From: Bacillota bacterium
Lineage (GTDB): Bacteria; Sysuimicrobiota; Sysuimicrobiia; Sysuimicrobiales; Segetimicrobiaceae
Reading direction: 5' to 3'
Length of the DNA: 51,529 nucleotides
Assembly (NCBI GenBank): GCA_021324255.1
Contig: JAJPJL010000076.1
Location: 1-51,529 of the forward strand
The notes below the pieces were generated by a model. That model saw only the letters and a list, made by a program, of their open reading frames with translations. It had not been told where the DNA came from and searched no databases. The first letter of the stretch is position 1. Each line of letters starts with the position of its first letter. The translations under genes and the position numbers were made by a program. This document shows, piece after piece, positions 43,890-51,529 of this stretch.

Positions 43890-43953
43890 CGTCCGCGGGG
43901 TGAGCGGGCGGCCCGCTGCGCCGCGGCAGGAGTCTCGACCGGGAAGGTCAAAC

Positions 43954-44673
43954 GTGGGCGCCATGGATCCGCGCGTTGCGGGCGCCCAGCGGAGAGGGCA
44001 CAACGGCGGCGCGGGCCGGCGGCCGGGGCTGACGGCCCCGGCGCTCCCGGACGCGCTCGGTGTATTCCGGCATGTCGCGGACGGCGTCATGGCCTTGGAC
44101 GCCGAAGGCACGTTCGTATTTTGGAACGACGCGGCCGAGGCGATCCTTGGCTACACCGCATCGGACGTGCTCGGCCGGCCGTGCTGGGAAGTCCTCGATG
44201 GGCGGACCGAGCAGGGCAATCTCAGTTGCCATCCGCATTGCCACGTGCTTGCGATGGCGGCGCGGCACGAGCCGGTACGCACGTACGACTTCCTGACCCG
44301 CGCCAAGGACGGCACCCCGCGCTGGGTCAACATCAGCACGATCCAGATCCCCGCCGCCGGCGGCTACCTCATCGTCCGGCCATTCCGGGACGTCACGCGG
44401 CAGCACCAGTTGACCGAGGCCCTGTTTGAGCGGTTGGGGGGCGCGCAGGCGCACCCGGCCCACAAGACAACCCGGATGGCAACTCCCCTCACCCTGCGCG
44501 AGCAGGAGGTGCTCCACCTGCTGGCCCAGGGGGAGGCCGTCGGCGCGATCGCGGAACGCCTGGGCATCCACGCGGCCACGGCCCGCAATCACATCCAGAA
44601 CATTCTCTCCAAACTGGGCGCCCACAGCCGGCTCGAGGCCGTCGCGATCGCCTCGCGCGCCGGGATAGTGTAG
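43954..44673 (+). CDS. PAS-LuxR response-type regulator
   Basis: 239 residues, GTG with GGGAAGG six bases upstream. PAS domain about 45-150 (DALGVFRHVADGVMALDAEG, FWNDAAEAILGYTASDVLGR), with a cysteine/histidine cluster in GNLSCHPHCHVLAMAA that could bind a metal or Fe-S. The C-terminal LuxR HTH is LTLREQEVLHLLAQGEAVGA with HAATARNHIQNILSKLGAHS. It probably senses a small ligand or redox state; the target may be the oxidase operon just downstream. Confidence 0.9.
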   Translation: MGAMDPRVAGAQRRGHNGGAGRRPGLTAPALPDALGVFRHVADGVMALDAEGTFVFWNDAAEAILGYTASDVLGRPCWEVLDGRTEQGNLSCHPHCHVLAMAARHEPVRTYDFLTRAKDGTPRWVNISTIQIPAAGGYLIVRPFRDVTRQHQLTEALFERLGGAQAHPAHKTTRMATPLTLREQEVLHLLAQGEAVGAIAERLGIHAATARNHIQNILSKLGAHSRLEAVAIASRAGIV

Positions 44674-44839: not shown

Positions 44840-45364
44840 ATGAATCCCTGGGTACCGTTTGTCGTGTTCCTGGTCATCGGGACGGCCTGGACGGTCGCGT
44901 GGGGCTGGACAATCGCGCGGGCGGGCGGCCCGCCGGCCGCCTATGACCCGATCTATCGCGGGGGCGGGTGGATCCGACGCCGCCTCTTCGCGGCGCTGAT
45001 CGTCGTGCTCGGCGCCGCATTCCTCGCCTCGCTCTGGTGGCTGCCCTACCGCGGCGTCGCCGCGTCCCGGCTCGGCGCGCCGACGGCGAGGGTGACGGTC
45101 ACCGCGCGAATGTGGCAGTGGACGTTGAGCCGGACGCAGACTCCCGCGGGCACCCCGGTCGAGTTCGACGTCACATCGGTGGACGTCAACCACGGGTTCG
45201 GCATCTACGGAGCGTCCGGCCACCTTGTGGCCCAGGTGCAGGCGATGCCGGGCTACACCAATCATCTGATCGTCCGGCTCCAGCCGGGCCGGTATGTCGT
45301 CCGCTGTCTCGAGTACTGCGGCGTGCCCCACATCGGGATGCTGACGGCGTTCGACGTCAAATAA
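44840..45364 (+). CDS. Heme-copper oxidase subunit II-like CuA protein
   Basis: 174 residues. Two hydrophobic segments (residues about 2-20 and 50-65) anchor it; the cupredoxin domain has the CuA ligands in DVNHGFGIYGASG (His) and RCLEYCGVPHIGM (Cys-x3-Cys, His, Met). An intact CuA site indicates electrons come from a cytochrome c-type donor. It is short for A-family subunit II but normal for B-family (ba3-like) enzymes. It forms an operon with subunit I 13 bases downstream. Confidence 0.9.
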   Translation: MNPWVPFVVFLVIGTAWTVAWGWTIARAGGPPAAYDPIYRGGGWIRRRLFAALIVVLGAAFLASLWWLPYRGVAASRLGAPTARVTVTARMWQWTLSRTQTPAGTPVEFDVTSVDVNHGFGIYGASGHLVAQVQAMPGYTNHLIVRLQPGRYVVRCLEYCGVPHIGMLTAFDVK

Positions 45365-45377
45365 GGAGGGCGTCGGC

Positions 45378-46892
45378 ATGGCCTCAACGCTCCTGAACGG
45401 GCGCAACGGCCCGGCGCTCCGTGCCGCGCTCGTCTATCTGTACGTCGGATTCGCGCTGTTCCTGCTGCTCGGACTGCTCGGGCTCACGATGCGGCTCGCC
45501 CACGCGGAGGCCCTGCCGATGGATCCCGCGCTGTACGACCAATTCTTCACGCTGCACGGGGCGGGCATGATCGCCGCGGTTCTGCTGGGGGCGATGGGCG
45601 GGATCGTTGCGGTGCTGAGCCCGCACGTGCATCTGGATCTCCGGCTGCTCTGGATCGGCTTCGTCCTCTACCTCCTCGGCGTCTGCTACATCCCGATCGC
45701 GGTGCTCCTCGGCGGCTTCTCCGCCGGGTGGACGGTGCTCTACCCGCTGCCGGTCGCGTACCAGGCGGGGTGGACGTCATGGTCCGCGTTCGCATTTCTC
45801 CTCGGGTACCTGTTCGTGGCCCTGGGGTTCGGGGTTTGGTGCCTGGCCGTGCTCCTCGGCACCGCCGGCACCTACGGCGGGCTGAGACGCGCCATGGCGT
45901 GGCCGCTGGTGTTCTCCGGCGGGCGGGCGACCGGCCCGCAGCCATACCTGCAGGACATCGTGGCGACGGTGATCGCGATCTACGGGATCGGTTCCGTGCT
46001 CGTGGGCGCGGTCTATCTCATCCCGTTGTTCGGGCAGAACCTCAGCCTGAGCGGCGCCGTGAACGCGCTCCTGATGAAGAATCTGGTGTTTCTGTTCGGC
46101 CACAACATGGTCAACCTGACGATCTACCTCGGGGCCGGCCTCGTCTACAGCATTCTGCCGCTCTACGCGGGACGCCCGTGGAAGACCTCGTGGCTGAGCG
46201 CGTTTGTGATCAACCTGCTGTTCGTCTCGATGCTGCTGCCGTTCTTCCATCACATGTACCAGGACTTCGTGAACACGGTACCGCTGCATCTGATCGGCGA
46301 GATCGGCTCGTACGGTTCCGGCCTGCCGGTTCTGCTCGTAACGATTCTCGGCGGACTCGGACTAGTGTACCGGGCGGGGATGCGCTGGGCGGTGCCGTCG
46401 ATCTTGATCCTCATCGGGTTCTGGGGTTGGGTGTTCGGCGGGATCGGGGCGCTCGTGGACGCGACGATCCCGATCAACCAGATCTACCACAACACCTTGT
46501 GGGTGCCGGCGCACTTCCATACCTACTACCTGCTGGGCGCGGTGGCGTTCGTCTGGGCGTTCCTGTACCACCTCACCGCGGATCTGAGCGGGCACCGCGA
46601 ACCGGGACTCAGTCGCACGGCCGCGTGGCTCTACGGGATCGGCGGGGCCGGCTTCGTCCTGATGTTCTTTATCGCCGGCGCGGCGGGGATGCCCAGGCGC
46701 TACGCGATTCCGGTGGCCGGCACGGGCGAGACGACCCTGGCCGCGATCGGATCGGCCTTCACGGCCCTGCTGGGCCTGGCGCTGGCGTGGCTTGCGTATG
46801 ACCTGCTGCGCCAGCTCCGACCGGCCTGGCGGCGGACGCTCGGTGCTTCGACCGAGCCCACGGTGCGGCCGACCGGGGGAGCGGCGACGTGA
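45378..46892 (+). CDS. Heme-copper oxygen/nitric-oxide reductase catalytic subunit I
   Basis: 504 residues, about 13 membrane helices. Low-spin heme His in FFTLHGAGMI; CuB His pair in LPFFHHMYQDF; heme His residues in NTLWVPAHFHTYYLLGAV. The CuB helix VI reads VFLFGHNMVNLTIYLGAGLV: the His is kept, but the residue four later, tyrosine in O2 reductases (HPEVY), is Asn. Without the cross-linked Tyr, O2 reduction would be unusual. Families derived from B-type oxidases that reduce NO share this loss. The operon also encodes heme O synthase and CtaG, so heme o/a is likely used. Confidence 0.9.
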   Translation: MASTLLNGRNGPALRAALVYLYVGFALFLLLGLLGLTMRLAHAEALPMDPALYDQFFTLHGAGMIAAVLLGAMGGIVAVLSPHVHLDLRLLWIGFVLYLLGVCYIPIAVLLGGFSAGWTVLYPLPVAYQAGWTSWSAFAFLLGYLFVALGFGVWCLAVLLGTAGTYGGLRRAMAWPLVFSGGRATGPQPYLQDIVATVIAIYGIGSVLVGAVYLIPLFGQNLSLSGAVNALLMKNLVFLFGHNMVNLTIYLGAGLVYSILPLYAGRPWKTSWLSAFVINLLFVSMLLPFFHHMYQDFVNTVPLHLIGEIGSYGSGLPVLLVTILGGLGLVYRAGMRWAVPSILILIGFWGWVFGGIGALVDATIPINQIYHNTLWVPAHFHTYYLLGAVAFVWAFLYHLTADLSGHREPGLSRTAAWLYGIGGAGFVLMFFIAGAAGMPRRYAIPVAGTGETTLAAIGSAFTALLGLALAWLAYDLLRQLRPAWRRTLGASTEPTVRPTGGAAT

Positions 46893-47845
46893 CCGGGACG
46901 GTTCGTCCGCCCGGGGCGCCCGTCGGGCCGGTCTCAGCCGCGGCGTTGGCGGCGGCGCCGGCAGGCCTTCTGGCCGCGCCCGCCGCGGCGGTGCTCCGCG
47001 ATTACGCGGCGCTGACGAAGCCGCGGATCGTACTCCTGCTGCTTGTCACGACCGTGACCGCGATGATCGTGGCGTCCCCGCGCCACCTCTCGTCCCTGAC
47101 GCTGGTGCTGACGCTGTTGGGCGGCGCGCTCGCGGCCGGGTCCGCCAACGCGTTCAACATGTACCTCGACCGCGACATCGACGCGCTGATGCCGCGCACC
47201 CGGCTGCGCCCCGTGCCGTCGGGCCGCCTGCGTCCGGTGCAGGTGCTCGGGTTTGGAGCGACGGCGGGCCTCCTCTCGATCGCGATACTGGGGTGGGGCG
47301 TCAACCCGCTGAGCGCGGCCCTGTCCCTGGCTGGGATCGTGTTCTACGTCGCGGTCTACACGGTCTGGCTCAAGCGCCGGAGTTCCCAGAACATCGTGAT
47401 CGGCGGCGCCGCTGGCGCAATCCCGCCGCTGGTCGGGTGGGCCGCGGCGACCGGGCACGTCGGCTTGTCCGCGGCCGCACTGTTCGGGATCGTGTTCCTG
47501 TGGACGCCGCCGCACTTCTGGGCGCTTGCCCTGCGGAAGGCGGACGAATACCGAGCGGCCGGGGTCCCCATGCTGCCCGTGGCCAGGGGAGAGCCGGAGA
47601 CCCGGCGGCAGATCTTCGCCTACGCACTCGTCCTGACCGCGGCGACGCTGCTCCCGTACGCGCCTCTCCACGCGCTGGGCTCCCTGTATCTAGCGGCTGC
47701 CGCGGTGCTCGACGGCGTCTTCGTGTGGCTGGCATGGGCTGTGCTGCGCCGGCGGCCCGGAGCGGACGCCGCCCTGTTCGGGTACTCGATCGTGTATCTC
47801 GCGGCGCTGTTTGTGGCGATGGCGGCGGATCGGCTGGCGGCGTAG
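46889..47845 (+). CDS. ctaB: Heme O synthase (protoheme IX farnesyltransferase)
   Basis: 318 residues, UbiA-type prenyltransferase. First Asp-rich motif in SANAFNMYLDRDIDALMPRT (NxxxDxxxD), second in LALRKADEYRAAGVPMLPVA; the substrate loop TPPHFWALALRKADEY is specific to heme O synthases. It attaches a farnesyl group to heme b. Its GTG overlaps the stop of subunit I (GTGA), so heme o (or a) is destined for this oxidase. Confidence 0.95.
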   Translation: MTGTVRPPGAPVGPVSAAALAAAPAGLLAAPAAAVLRDYAALTKPRIVLLLLVTTVTAMIVASPRHLSSLTLVLTLLGGALAAGSANAFNMYLDRDIDALMPRTRLRPVPSGRLRPVQVLGFGATAGLLSIAILGWGVNPLSAALSLAGIVFYVAVYTVWLKRRSSQNIVIGGAAGAIPPLVGWAAATGHVGLSAAALFGIVFLWTPPHFWALALRKADEYRAAGVPMLPVARGEPETRRQIFAYALVLTAATLLPYAPLHALGSLYLAAAAVLDGVFVWLAWAVLRRRPGADAALFGYSIVYLAALFVAMAADRLAA

Positions 47846-47913: not shown

Positions 47914-48840
47914 ATGACCTGGTCCGCGGTCGCGGGGGCCTGGGAGTGGCGGCCCGACGTACTCGCGGCGCTCTGCATCGTGAGCCTCGTGTACGTACGC
48001 GGATGGGTGATCCTGCGGCGGCGGGGCTTTCCGAAGGTCGCCTCCGGAGTTCGCCTGGCCGCGTCGCTAGCGGGCTGGGGGATCGTCGGGGCGGCGCTCC
48101 TCTCACCGCTGGATCTATTGCAGCGGCGCCTCCTGTCCGCCCACATGGTCCAGCACGAACTGCTGATGGTCGCCGGGCCGCCGCTCATTCTAGCCGGCCG
48201 CCCGGTGCCCGTCGCCTTCTGGGGACTGCCCGCGGATGTCCGGACGTGGGCCGGCCGGGCGGGCCGCCCGCGAGGGCCAGCGCGCGGCGCCTTCGATCTC
48301 CTGACGGCGCCTCTACCGGCCTGGCTCGTCTCCACGGGTATCCTGTGGACGTGGCACGTCCCCGCCGTGTATAACGCGGTCGAGAGCAACGGGATGCTGC
48401 ACAACGCTCAGCACCTCTGTTTCCTTGTGGCGGGCCTCTTGTTCTGGTGGCCGGTGATCGGGGCCCCGCCGCGCACGCGGTCCCTGAGCCTCCCGGCGCT
48501 CAGCGCCTATCTGCTTGCCGGGATGACCCAACGCTCCCTGCTGGGGGCCCTCATCACGCTGTCCCGCCGCGTCTTGTACCCGCACTACGCCGCGGTGCGG
48601 GGCATCGGGGCGGCGGCCGCGCTGGACGACCAACACGTCGCCGGCGCGGTCATGTGGTTTGGCAGCGGGATCGTGTTGCTCGCCATCACCCTGGGCGCTA
48701 TCTGGCGGGCGCCCGCGCCTCGGCTCCCCGCCGAAATTTTCTCGGATGAGGCGCCCGGTGCCGCGGGCGCTCCCGCCGTCGAGCCCGCGCCCGCCGCGGC
48801 GGAGGTCCGACCCGCCGGTCCCGCGGCCGGGAGCGGCTGA
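47914..48840 (+). CDS. CtaG-type cytochrome oxidase assembly protein
   Basis: 308 residues, about seven membrane helices. Family features: LLSPLDLLQRRLLSAHMVQH, HVPAVYNAVESNGMLHNAQH with conserved histidines, and DDQHVAGAVMWFGSGIVLLA. The caa3-type CtaG fold is linked to CuB insertion. ATG with GGGAAG five bases upstream. The Pro/Ala tail is not conserved. It completes the operon. Confidence 0.9.
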   Translation: MTWSAVAGAWEWRPDVLAALCIVSLVYVRGWVILRRRGFPKVASGVRLAASLAGWGIVGAALLSPLDLLQRRLLSAHMVQHELLMVAGPPLILAGRPVPVAFWGLPADVRTWAGRAGRPRGPARGAFDLLTAPLPAWLVSTGILWTWHVPAVYNAVESNGMLHNAQHLCFLVAGLLFWWPVIGAPPRTRSLSLPALSAYLLAGMTQRSLLGALITLSRRVLYPHYAAVRGIGAAAALDDQHVAGAVMWFGSGIVLLAITLGAIWRAPAPRLPAEIFSDEAPGAAGAPAVEPAPAAAEVRPAGPAAGSG

Positions 48841-48962
48841 CGGCACCGGCGTCCCCTGTTTGCCGTGCTGCCGCCTCAGTGCCACGCGATCATCGAACAG
48901 CGCGGCGGCGCCATACGCGACGTAGCCCCCCGCTTCCTCCTTCGGCCCTGATTGCGGGCGGA

Positions 48963-48978
48963 CTTGATATATGTCAAG
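48963..48978. promoter_or_regulatory. Inverted repeat upstream of the Xre-RES pair
   Basis: CTTGATATATGTCAAG: half-sites CTTGA and TCAAG around an AT-rich core, 21 bases before the antitoxin ATG. It is a likely antitoxin operator; the core may also contain the -10 region. Confidence 0.5.
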
Positions 48979-48998
48979 ATGGAACTAGAGGGCGAAAC

Positions 48999-49364
48999 AT
49001 GGGTGCGGTCGCCGAGACGATTCCGGCTCAAAAGCTTCGAAAGGCACGCAGATTGCTCGGCCTCACGCAGGTCGAGGCCGGTCGAGCGCTTGGCCGCGTG
49101 CGGCCTGAAACTGTGTCCCGGTGGGAGAGCCGCTCGGCGAAGGCGCGCCCCCTGCATGCGCAAACGGCGCGGTATCTAATCGAGATCGCGCGCATGCTCC
49201 GGGACGTGGCGCCGGCCGAAGAGGATCGGCGGCGATTCCTCAACTCACCGCAGCCTGACCTGCACGGCAAGACGCCTCACCAAGTCATGCTGGAAGACCC
49301 ACCGTTTGGCGCTCGACAGGTCTACGACCTGCTGGGTCGCGTGCTCCACGGAATTCCGTCCTAA
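48999..49364 (+). CDS. Xre/MbcA-type antitoxin (DUF2384)
   Basis: 121 residues. N-terminal HTH LRKARRLLGLTQVEAGRALG with RPETVSRWESRSAKARPLHA; the C-terminus is the DUF2384/MbcA toxin-binding domain (FLNSPQPDLHGKTPHQVMLE to QVYDLLGRVLHGIPS). ATG with GAGGG eight bases upstream; the frame runs farther upstream but lacks conservation. It is paired with the RES toxin six bases later. Confidence 0.9.
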   Translation: MGAVAETIPAQKLRKARRLLGLTQVEAGRALGRVRPETVSRWESRSAKARPLHAQTARYLIEIARMLRDVAPAEEDRRRFLNSPQPDLHGKTPHQVMLEDPPFGARQVYDLLGRVLHGIPS

Positions 49365-49370
49365 CTCAGC

Positions 49371-49910
49371 ATGCCCAGGGAGCCGTTGCGCCGCGTCGAG
49401 GCGGCCATGGCCGACTTGCGCCCCCGTCGTGTCGAGGGCGTCTGGCACCGCTTCGTCGCCGAACAGCACAAAGAAACCGCAGATAGCGACCGAGGCGCGT
49501 TTGAACATGGTGGTCGCTACAATCCACGCCGCGAATTTGGCGCGCTTTACCTCTCCGAAAGCCCGGCGGCGTGCCGGGCTGAGATGCAGCGACGCCCGGG
49601 CGTCCGTCTCCGGTACTGGCACGCCCGCGTCAGCATCCGCATTACCAAGGCCCTTGATCTCACGGATCCGTCCACCTGTAACGCGTTAGGTGTCGTCAAG
49701 GCAGACCTCGTATCCGACGATTGGGACCTCACGCAAGACATTGCCAGGGCGGCACGGCGTGCCGGCTTTGATGCGTTGATCGTGCCATCCGCCGCAGGGA
49801 ATTACCGCAATCTCGTCGTCTTCAAGGATCTGCTTTCCGAGGAAGAGGCCGCCCCGAGACTGAGCGCGTCACTGCCACGCCTCAAGGCTCCTAGACTGCG
49901 CCCCCGGTGA
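49371..49910 (+). CDS. RES-domain toxin (NAD+-degrading)
   Basis: 179 residues. RES fold signatures: the Arg/Phe region VWHRFV, GGRYNPRREFGALYLSESPA (GRYN and the Glu/Ser region), AEMQRR, and DALIVPSAAGNYRNLVVFKD. Known RES toxins degrade NAD+ and stop growth when freed from Xre. Key residues look intact. It ends 24 bases before an IS21 remnant on the opposite strand. Confidence 0.9.
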   Translation: MPREPLRRVEAAMADLRPRRVEGVWHRFVAEQHKETADSDRGAFEHGGRYNPRREFGALYLSESPAACRAEMQRRPGVRLRYWHARVSIRITKALDLTDPSTCNALGVVKADLVSDDWDLTQDIARAARRAGFDALIVPSAAGNYRNLVVFKDLLSEEEAAPRLSASLPRLKAPRLRPR

Positions 49911-50579: not shown

Positions 50580-51529
50580 CAACGGCGGAAACGTCGCTTG
50601 CGTCGGCGTCGTACTGCGCGTTGAGCCAGTCGCTTCAATGGGGCCGCCGTTTCTCAACGGCGGAAACTTATCATTCCAACCAGGGCGCTGGGGTCAATGG
50701 ACAGCTTCAATGGGGCCGCCGTTTCTCAACGGCGGAAACGCGTGTTGCGTACGTGGTTTCGCTTCCTCGTCGACGCTTCAATGGGGCCGCCGTTTCTCAA
50801 CGGCGGAAACTCCTCAACGTCGAAACGTACTGGCTGGACAAGGTCAAGCTTCAATGGGGCCGCCGTTTCTCAACGGCGGAAACGTCTGCCACGCGTCGGG
50901 GCCGATTACCCAGTCTTCGCTTCAATGGGGCCGCCGTTTCTCAACGGCGGAAACGTGTTCAACGGGCTCAGCCCGCAGGGCGTGGGAGGCCTTCAATGGG
51001 GCCGCCGTTTCTCAACGGCGTAAACCGCTGCCGCGTGTGCGGCGAACCGTGGGACATGGACCCTTCAATGGGGCCGCCGTTTCTCAACGGCGGAAACCTA
51101 CTCGGCCGCCGCGAGCCTGCGCCGGGCTGGGTACCCTTCAATGGGGCCGCCGTTTCTCAACGGCGGAAACCTCGCCACCCAGCGCTGCGTTTCCCTTTTC
51201 GCCGCCTCCTTCAATGGGGCCGCCGTTTCTCAACGGCGGAAACGCGCGCCCCTTTGTTCAGTGATGTCGTGAGACAACACCTTCAATGGGGCCGCCGTTT
51301 CTCAACGGCGGAAACTCGTGCCCTCGGGGGCAAGTGGTACGCGGGGGACACCTTCAATGGGGCCGCCGTTTCTCAACGGCGGAAACTCTGATTGAGCCAT
51401 GAGCATCCAATGGTACCGCGGGGCCTTCAATGGGGCCGCCGTTTCTCAACGGCGGAAACAGGCACTCCGCCCACACAAGCTGCGGATGAAGATCCCTTCA
51501 ATGGGGCCGCCGTTTCTCAACGGCGGAAA
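50580..51529 (+). CRISPR. CRISPR array, 13 repeats plus a truncated one; continues past the window
   Basis: Repeat of 35 bases beginning CTTCAATGGGG and ending GGCGGAAAC, with an internal palindrome CCGCCGTT-TCTC-AACGGCGG. Full repeats start at 50633, 50705, 50776, 50849, 50920, 50991, 51063, 51136, 51209, 51281, 51352, 51425 and 51496 (last cut by the window end). Spacers are 36-38 bases; the first, between the truncated repeat (50580-50592) and 50633, is 40. The repeat at 50991 has one base change near its end. GAAAC-type ends suggest plus-strand transcription. No cas genes are in this window. Confidence 0.96.

Follow-up and report, generated by a model that had tools for sequence, protein, structure and literature searches.

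Does a heme-copper enzyme that has lost the active-site tyrosine of the oxygen reductases reduce nitric oxide (NO) instead, and if so, to which family of NO reductases (NORs) does it belong? The question is raised by an open reading frame at positions 45378-46892 (+) of the window, by which we mean the whole stretch of 51,529 nucleotides of Sysuimicrobiota DNA analysed here. Its product of 504 residues and 12 helices matches the heme-copper oxidase subunit I family (PF00115, E 2e-46), and its assignment as an sNOR-type subunit I also draws on relatives, trees and a structural model. In helix VI (FLFGHNMVNLTIY) the motif GHNMVN (residues 241-246; positions 46098-46115 (+)) contains the CuB ligand H242 and, at His+4, N246, at the position where all A-type and B-type rows have Tyr in a column comparison across families. 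This tyrosine, which is cross-linked in O2 reductases, is a redox-active residue needed by O2 reductases and absent from NORs. The earlier note on this DNA had read both the replacement of Tyr by Asn and the survival of the CuB and heme histidines from the sequence, and both readings held: all six metal-ligand histidines (H60, H242, H291, H292, H379 and H381) are kept. A displaced Tyr of the kind found in cbb3 oxidases was considered and rejected, as Met (M285) occupies the corresponding position, six residues ahead of the HH pair in helix VII, and Y250, at His+8, is too far away for the cross-link.

N246 and the six histidines are invariant in an alignment of family members (48/48 rows), and FGHxxxN recurs in all 80 relatives' loci fetched in a genome-wide scan, so that Asn246 is neither a chance replacement nor a sequencing error. 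These loci come from about a dozen phyla (Chloroflexota, Thermomicrobiota, Gemmatimonadota, Pseudomonadota, Acidobacteriota, Actinomycetota, Bacillota, Bacteroidota, Vulcanimicrobiota and others), and the Asn-bearing subunit I is, at the level of sequence, a family and no one-off. Four further residues, Y250, W351, D361 and Y383, are invariant in the clade and occur in none of the A-type, B-type, eNOR and cbb3 rows compared. The predicted model of subunit I (pLDDT 89.4, pTM 0.92) has 12 long helices and by Z score lies closer to A-type oxidases (42) than to ba3 (36), a closeness that fits the common 12-helix core; ancestry is not decided by the model.

To place the protein, we used a maximum-likelihood tree of 84 heme-copper enzymes, with 38 Asn rows including the window protein and with no bNOR or Nitrosomonas NorY sequence. 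The 38 Asn rows form one side of a branch with an SH-aLRT support of 100. In a careful search on the alignment without helix VI, the clade is supported at 100/100, and the other families are separate too. It contains Ruegeria (Silicibacter) pomeroyi DSS-3 and excludes the A-type, B-type, cbb3 and eNOR rows. A phylogeny with reference families had been proposed earlier as a check, and its outcome favours the NOR reading: the window protein sits with R. pomeroyi outside the O2-reductase rows, with no replacement Tyr. Matches in plasmid records had E values of 1e-58 (R. pomeroyi) and 4e-47, whereas other oxidases reached about 1e-12 at best. In a search for a bNOR reference, which covered plasmids (with B-type queries) and 249 genomes from the phylum of a Bacillota MAG, every sequence read was either an oxidase with Tyr or an eNOR with Gln, and no subunit II homologue was found in viral contigs.

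The deeper position of the clade is less firm. It joins the B-type and eNOR enzymes with moderate support (89/81), and an alternative tree that groups it with the A-type enzymes is not rejected (AU p 0.45), trailing by only 0.95 log units; B-type and eNOR rows together exclude it at 100/98, and it is therefore not nested in the sampled B-types. In the literature, sNOR is assigned to the B family. In light of the moderate support, the A-type alternative and a model that fits A-type enzymes better than ba3, the descent from B-type oxidases implied in the earlier note is only one possible origin.

Which NOR family is meant can be read in part from the residue at the Tyr site, where O2 reductases have Tyr and the NORs carry Glu (cNOR, qNOR), Asn (sNOR, CuANOR), Gln (eNOR) or Asp (gNOR) (PMC8756737, Table A4); the same table gives CuANOR one proton channel and sNOR none, and lists Silicibacter and Geobacillus as sNOR carriers. 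In Bacillus, two Asn types have been described (PMC3475470). Type I, full-length and with 13 helices, is the CuANOR purified from B. azotoformans, an NO reductase with Asn at the Tyr position; type II is shorter, with 12 helices and a two-helix subunit II, is linked to SenC/SCO1 and a protein of 4-5 helices and, in Geobacillus, to a heme a synthesis gene (PMC3475470). That paper uses ‘sNOR’ for type I, unlike our usage. With its Asn, its 12-helix subunit I and its two-helix CuA subunit II, the window enzyme has the architecture of type II, and as Geobacillus is listed under sNOR in Table A4, we infer that type II CuANOR is sNOR. Together with the clade shared with R. pomeroyi, this architecture makes it well supported, on sequence grounds, that the window protein is a new member, from Sysuimicrobiota, of the known predicted NO reductase family sNOR. 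The family and its Asn hallmark are already published; what is new is the member.

Other families were rejected in turn: eNOR, which has Gln at the Tyr position in 11/11 rows and forms a separate clade; cNOR and qNOR, defined by Glu at His+4 and His+8, where the window protein has N246 and Y250 and the cNOR row in the tree (L117) has Glu at both and branches elsewhere; cbb3 (C-type) oxidases, by M285 and a separate clade; and the A- and B-type O2 reductases, whose cross-linkable Tyr at His+4 is replaced by Asn. The earlier note had proposed an NO reductase of a kind such as eNOR, bNOR or sNOR. The proposal survives for sNOR, with the Asn hallmark, the tree and the relatives' neighbourhoods behind it, and fails for eNOR (Gln, other clade) and for bNOR (length, helix count).

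Subunit I lies in a tight cluster of the order subII(CuA)-subI-ctaB-ctaG. Subunit II (44840-45364, +; 174 residues) has two N-terminal transmembrane helices, seen as hydrophobic segments, and a CuA cupredoxin domain (PF00116, E 4.8e-5) with a complete CuA motif, H...CLEYCGVPHIGM; its frame is open from 44723, and the start at 44840 is preferred. The heme O synthase gene ctaB (46889-47845, +; 318 aa; NCBIfam NF003349, 357.9 bits against a cut-off of 246) begins within the last 4 nt of subunit I. Next comes a gene for a copper delivery/assembly factor of the CtaG type (47914-48840, +; 308 aa; PF09678, E 5.1e-54). A heme O synthase and a CuA subunit II thus do stand beside subunit I, as had been noted. 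The further argument that heme O synthase marks a working enzyme is weak, because CtaB is found near sNOR in only 3/83 loci, an A-type oxidase comes after ctaB in the sister locus L011, and the host genome has another ctaB outside the cluster (71% identity between the two copies); neighbours alone are insufficient for it. Upstream, a PAS-LuxR transcription regulator (43900-44673, +; PF13426 and PF00196) could possibly regulate the cluster; it has a homologue near sNOR in 3/83 loci. No senC/SCO gene and no gene for a small (~200-aa) membrane protein was found in the window cluster or in its closest relatives, which have ctaG there instead, and no NsrR-like regulator or nitrite transporter in the window. 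Directly after the cluster, positions 48879-49910 encode an Xre/MbcA/ParS-type antitoxin and RES-domain toxin pair, and a CRISPR array occupies positions 50630-51529, up to the contig end; its repeats (core CTTCAATGGGGCCGCCGTTTCTCAACGGCGGAAAC) number at least 13, are nearly identical and have a spacing of 71-73.

The neighbourhoods of the relatives bear on the substrate. Neighbour genes of 83 loci were clustered with a codon-position filter against spurious high-GC reading frames. A subunit II homologue adjoins subunit I in 81 of the 83; SCO is near in 37 loci and the ~200-aa membrane protein in 34, and CtaG in 16 by clustering and 20/83 by tblastn, these being the loci nearest the window protein. 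Rrf2 regulators, mostly divergent, occur in 20 loci and formate/nitrite transporters in 19. NsrR was the best NCBIfam match for four of five Rrf2 proteins tested, all below the curated cut-off, and NirC that of the single transporter tested, also below cut-off. NsrR is an NO sensor, and the NsrR-like regulators and nitrite transporters of the relatives favour NO as the substrate.

Two relatives of the same order have cupredoxin-like genes just upstream of subunit II (L006, 3545-4156 (-); L007, 352-954 (+)), whose products are possible electron donors; the window cluster has no such gene. Several other heme-copper loci also came to light. On one Chloroflexi contig (L012/L115), an sNOR cluster with Asn stands back to back with an eNOR cluster with Gln, and the same genome encodes a C-type-like heme-copper protein (L114, 557-2047) that reads VHNIFN, with Asn at His+4, and falls outside the sNOR clade. 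A B-type-like subunit I (L116, 505-2409) has FHVNHYV in helix VI and a single His at the site of the CuB HH pair. On a plasmid of Thermus thermophilus TF25, a Gln eNOR-type enzyme (L092, 3839-5524) adjoins nirS, in which the low-spin heme ligand motif is HFK, not HFH.

The host is represented by a draft genome of 3.7 Mb. Contamination was considered and dismissed: two congeners carry another gene of the contig at 95% and 88% identity, and the contig therefore belongs to the host genome. The sNOR gene is present in 3/43 Sysuimicrobiota genomes, one same-order carrier being Candidatus Segetimicrobium, and is missing from two congeners and the other family members searched. At the DNA level, six family members gave no strong match to the sNOR genes, the ctaB region excepted, and the accessory region around them has few matches in family members, mainly in that region. 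This patchy distribution points to acquisition by transfer or to loss on several occasions. In the phylum, norB has been reported in one family only (PMC11604079). The four COX1 (PF00115) matches of the host are two A-type enzymes, the sNOR gene and a fragment, which leaves no other NOR candidate. NarG is present (1688 bits). NirK was not found, NirS gave only weak, doubtful propeller-like matches and NosZ matches to CuA domains only, so that the host genome shows no clear NO source.

Taken together, these results lead us to favour, at a probability of roughly three in four, a membrane-bound NO reductase with two subunits, belonging to the proposed sNOR family, and NO reduction by the window enzyme is likely from its sequence. 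Electrons would pass from a soluble carrier, presumably cytochrome c or a cupredoxin, to CuA of subunit II, from there to the low-spin heme (H60/H381) and on to the site of high-spin heme (H379) and CuB (H242, H291, H292) in subunit I, where two NO would be coupled to N2O. Asn246 stands in place of the cross-linked Tyr, from which O2 reductases draw an additional electron and proton, and by analogy with the cNOR row it is plausible that N246 and Y250 are the counterpart of the cNOR Glu pair at His+4 and His+8. The enzyme would most likely serve either to remove or to respire the NO that is formed around nitrate reduction. That NO is the main substrate we infer, as we do the electron donor, the heme type and this role; no measurement of sNOR activity was found in the literature searched, and the primary function of sNOR has been called unresolved, with indirect evidence for NO (PMC6967387).

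The same enzyme might instead reduce O2 with high affinity and dispense with the cross-linked Tyr, perhaps by way of Tyr250, NO being reduced in a side reaction. Such a role has been argued for the sNOR of N. europaea from its transcription, which is induced under O2 limitation (PMC6967387). Y250 is specific to the clade (38/38 rows, and missing from every other family compared) and lies two helical turns along helix VI, CtaB and CtaG are neighbours typical of oxidase clusters, and a clear NO-forming nitrite reductase is missing from the host genome. However, His+8 would by geometry lie about 12 A along the helix, out of reach of the usual His-Tyr cross-link; Y250 fits a NOR equally well, given that the cNOR row also has a Glu there; and the host already has two A-type oxidases. 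The cross-linked Tyr is, to our knowledge, kept in every established O2-reducing family, and its loss and the NO-related neighbours of the relatives speak against O2 as the main substrate, so that we consider this alternative unlikely. More doubtful still is its extension to the sNOR family as a whole, in which O2 would be mainly reduced without a His-Tyr cross-link and Tyr250, with its partners Asp361 and Tyr383, would supply proton and electron; if true, O2 reductases could no longer be defined by their cross-linked Tyr.

An enzyme of the CuANOR/bNOR type has the same Asn and a CuA subunit, but its subunit I genes of 1683-1707 bp encode 13 helices and its subunit II has one helix (PMC3475470), against 504 residues, 12 helices and a two-helix subunit II in the window. 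The positions of the ba3 K-channel residues Y244 and S309 are moreover A and V in the window protein, against the one channel tabulated for CuANOR and none for sNOR, while the equivalents of Y248 and T312 are kept. On the whole, this assignment is very improbable. A degenerate or non-catalytic oxidase paralogue, to which the patchy occurrence in the phylum and the absence from relatives of the host might point, is the least credible reading, as the frame is intact, all ligands are kept, residues are invariant across about a dozen phyla and the partner subunit is retained in nearly all loci.

The sNOR assignment matters beyond this contig, which adds a member of the family from a little-known candidate phylum of soil. 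General annotation calls sNOR proteins cytochrome c oxidase, and NO-reducing capacity and N2O production are therefore probably under-counted in soil genomes; N246, Y250, W351, D361 and Y383 provide an alignment-level signature that tells sNOR from oxidases.

Compared with known systems, the window enzyme shares with the B-type ba3 oxidase the heme-copper fold and two K-channel residues (Y248 and T312 of ba3, Y257 and T322 here), but it lacks the cross-linked Tyr and the Y244/S309 pair and belongs to a separate clade. It resembles eNOR in the loss of Tyr and in a CuA-type subunit II and differs from it in having Asn for Gln and in its clade. With the CuANOR/bNOR of Bacillus azotoformans, which is absent from the tree, it has in common the Asn and the CuA subunit, and not the longer, 13-helix subunit I or the one-helix subunit II. 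On a megaplasmid of Thermomicrobium roseum, TRD_RS11250, annotated as a cbb3-type subunit I, is 49.5% identical and reads FGHTLVN; its locus resembles that of the window in a CuA subunit II upstream and a CtaG-type gene downstream, and differs by a formate/nitrite transporter in between and by the lack of ctaB. The match in architecture is with sNOR itself (NorSY of ammonia oxidisers, R. pomeroyi and probably the ‘type II qCuANOR’ of Bacillus and Geobacillus), which has the same Asn, 12-helix subunit I and two-helix CuA subunit II, although the window protein is only ~37% identical to that of R. pomeroyi and its cluster has ctaB and ctaG where genes for SCO, an NsrR-like regulator, a nitrite transporter and the ~200-aa membrane protein are missing.
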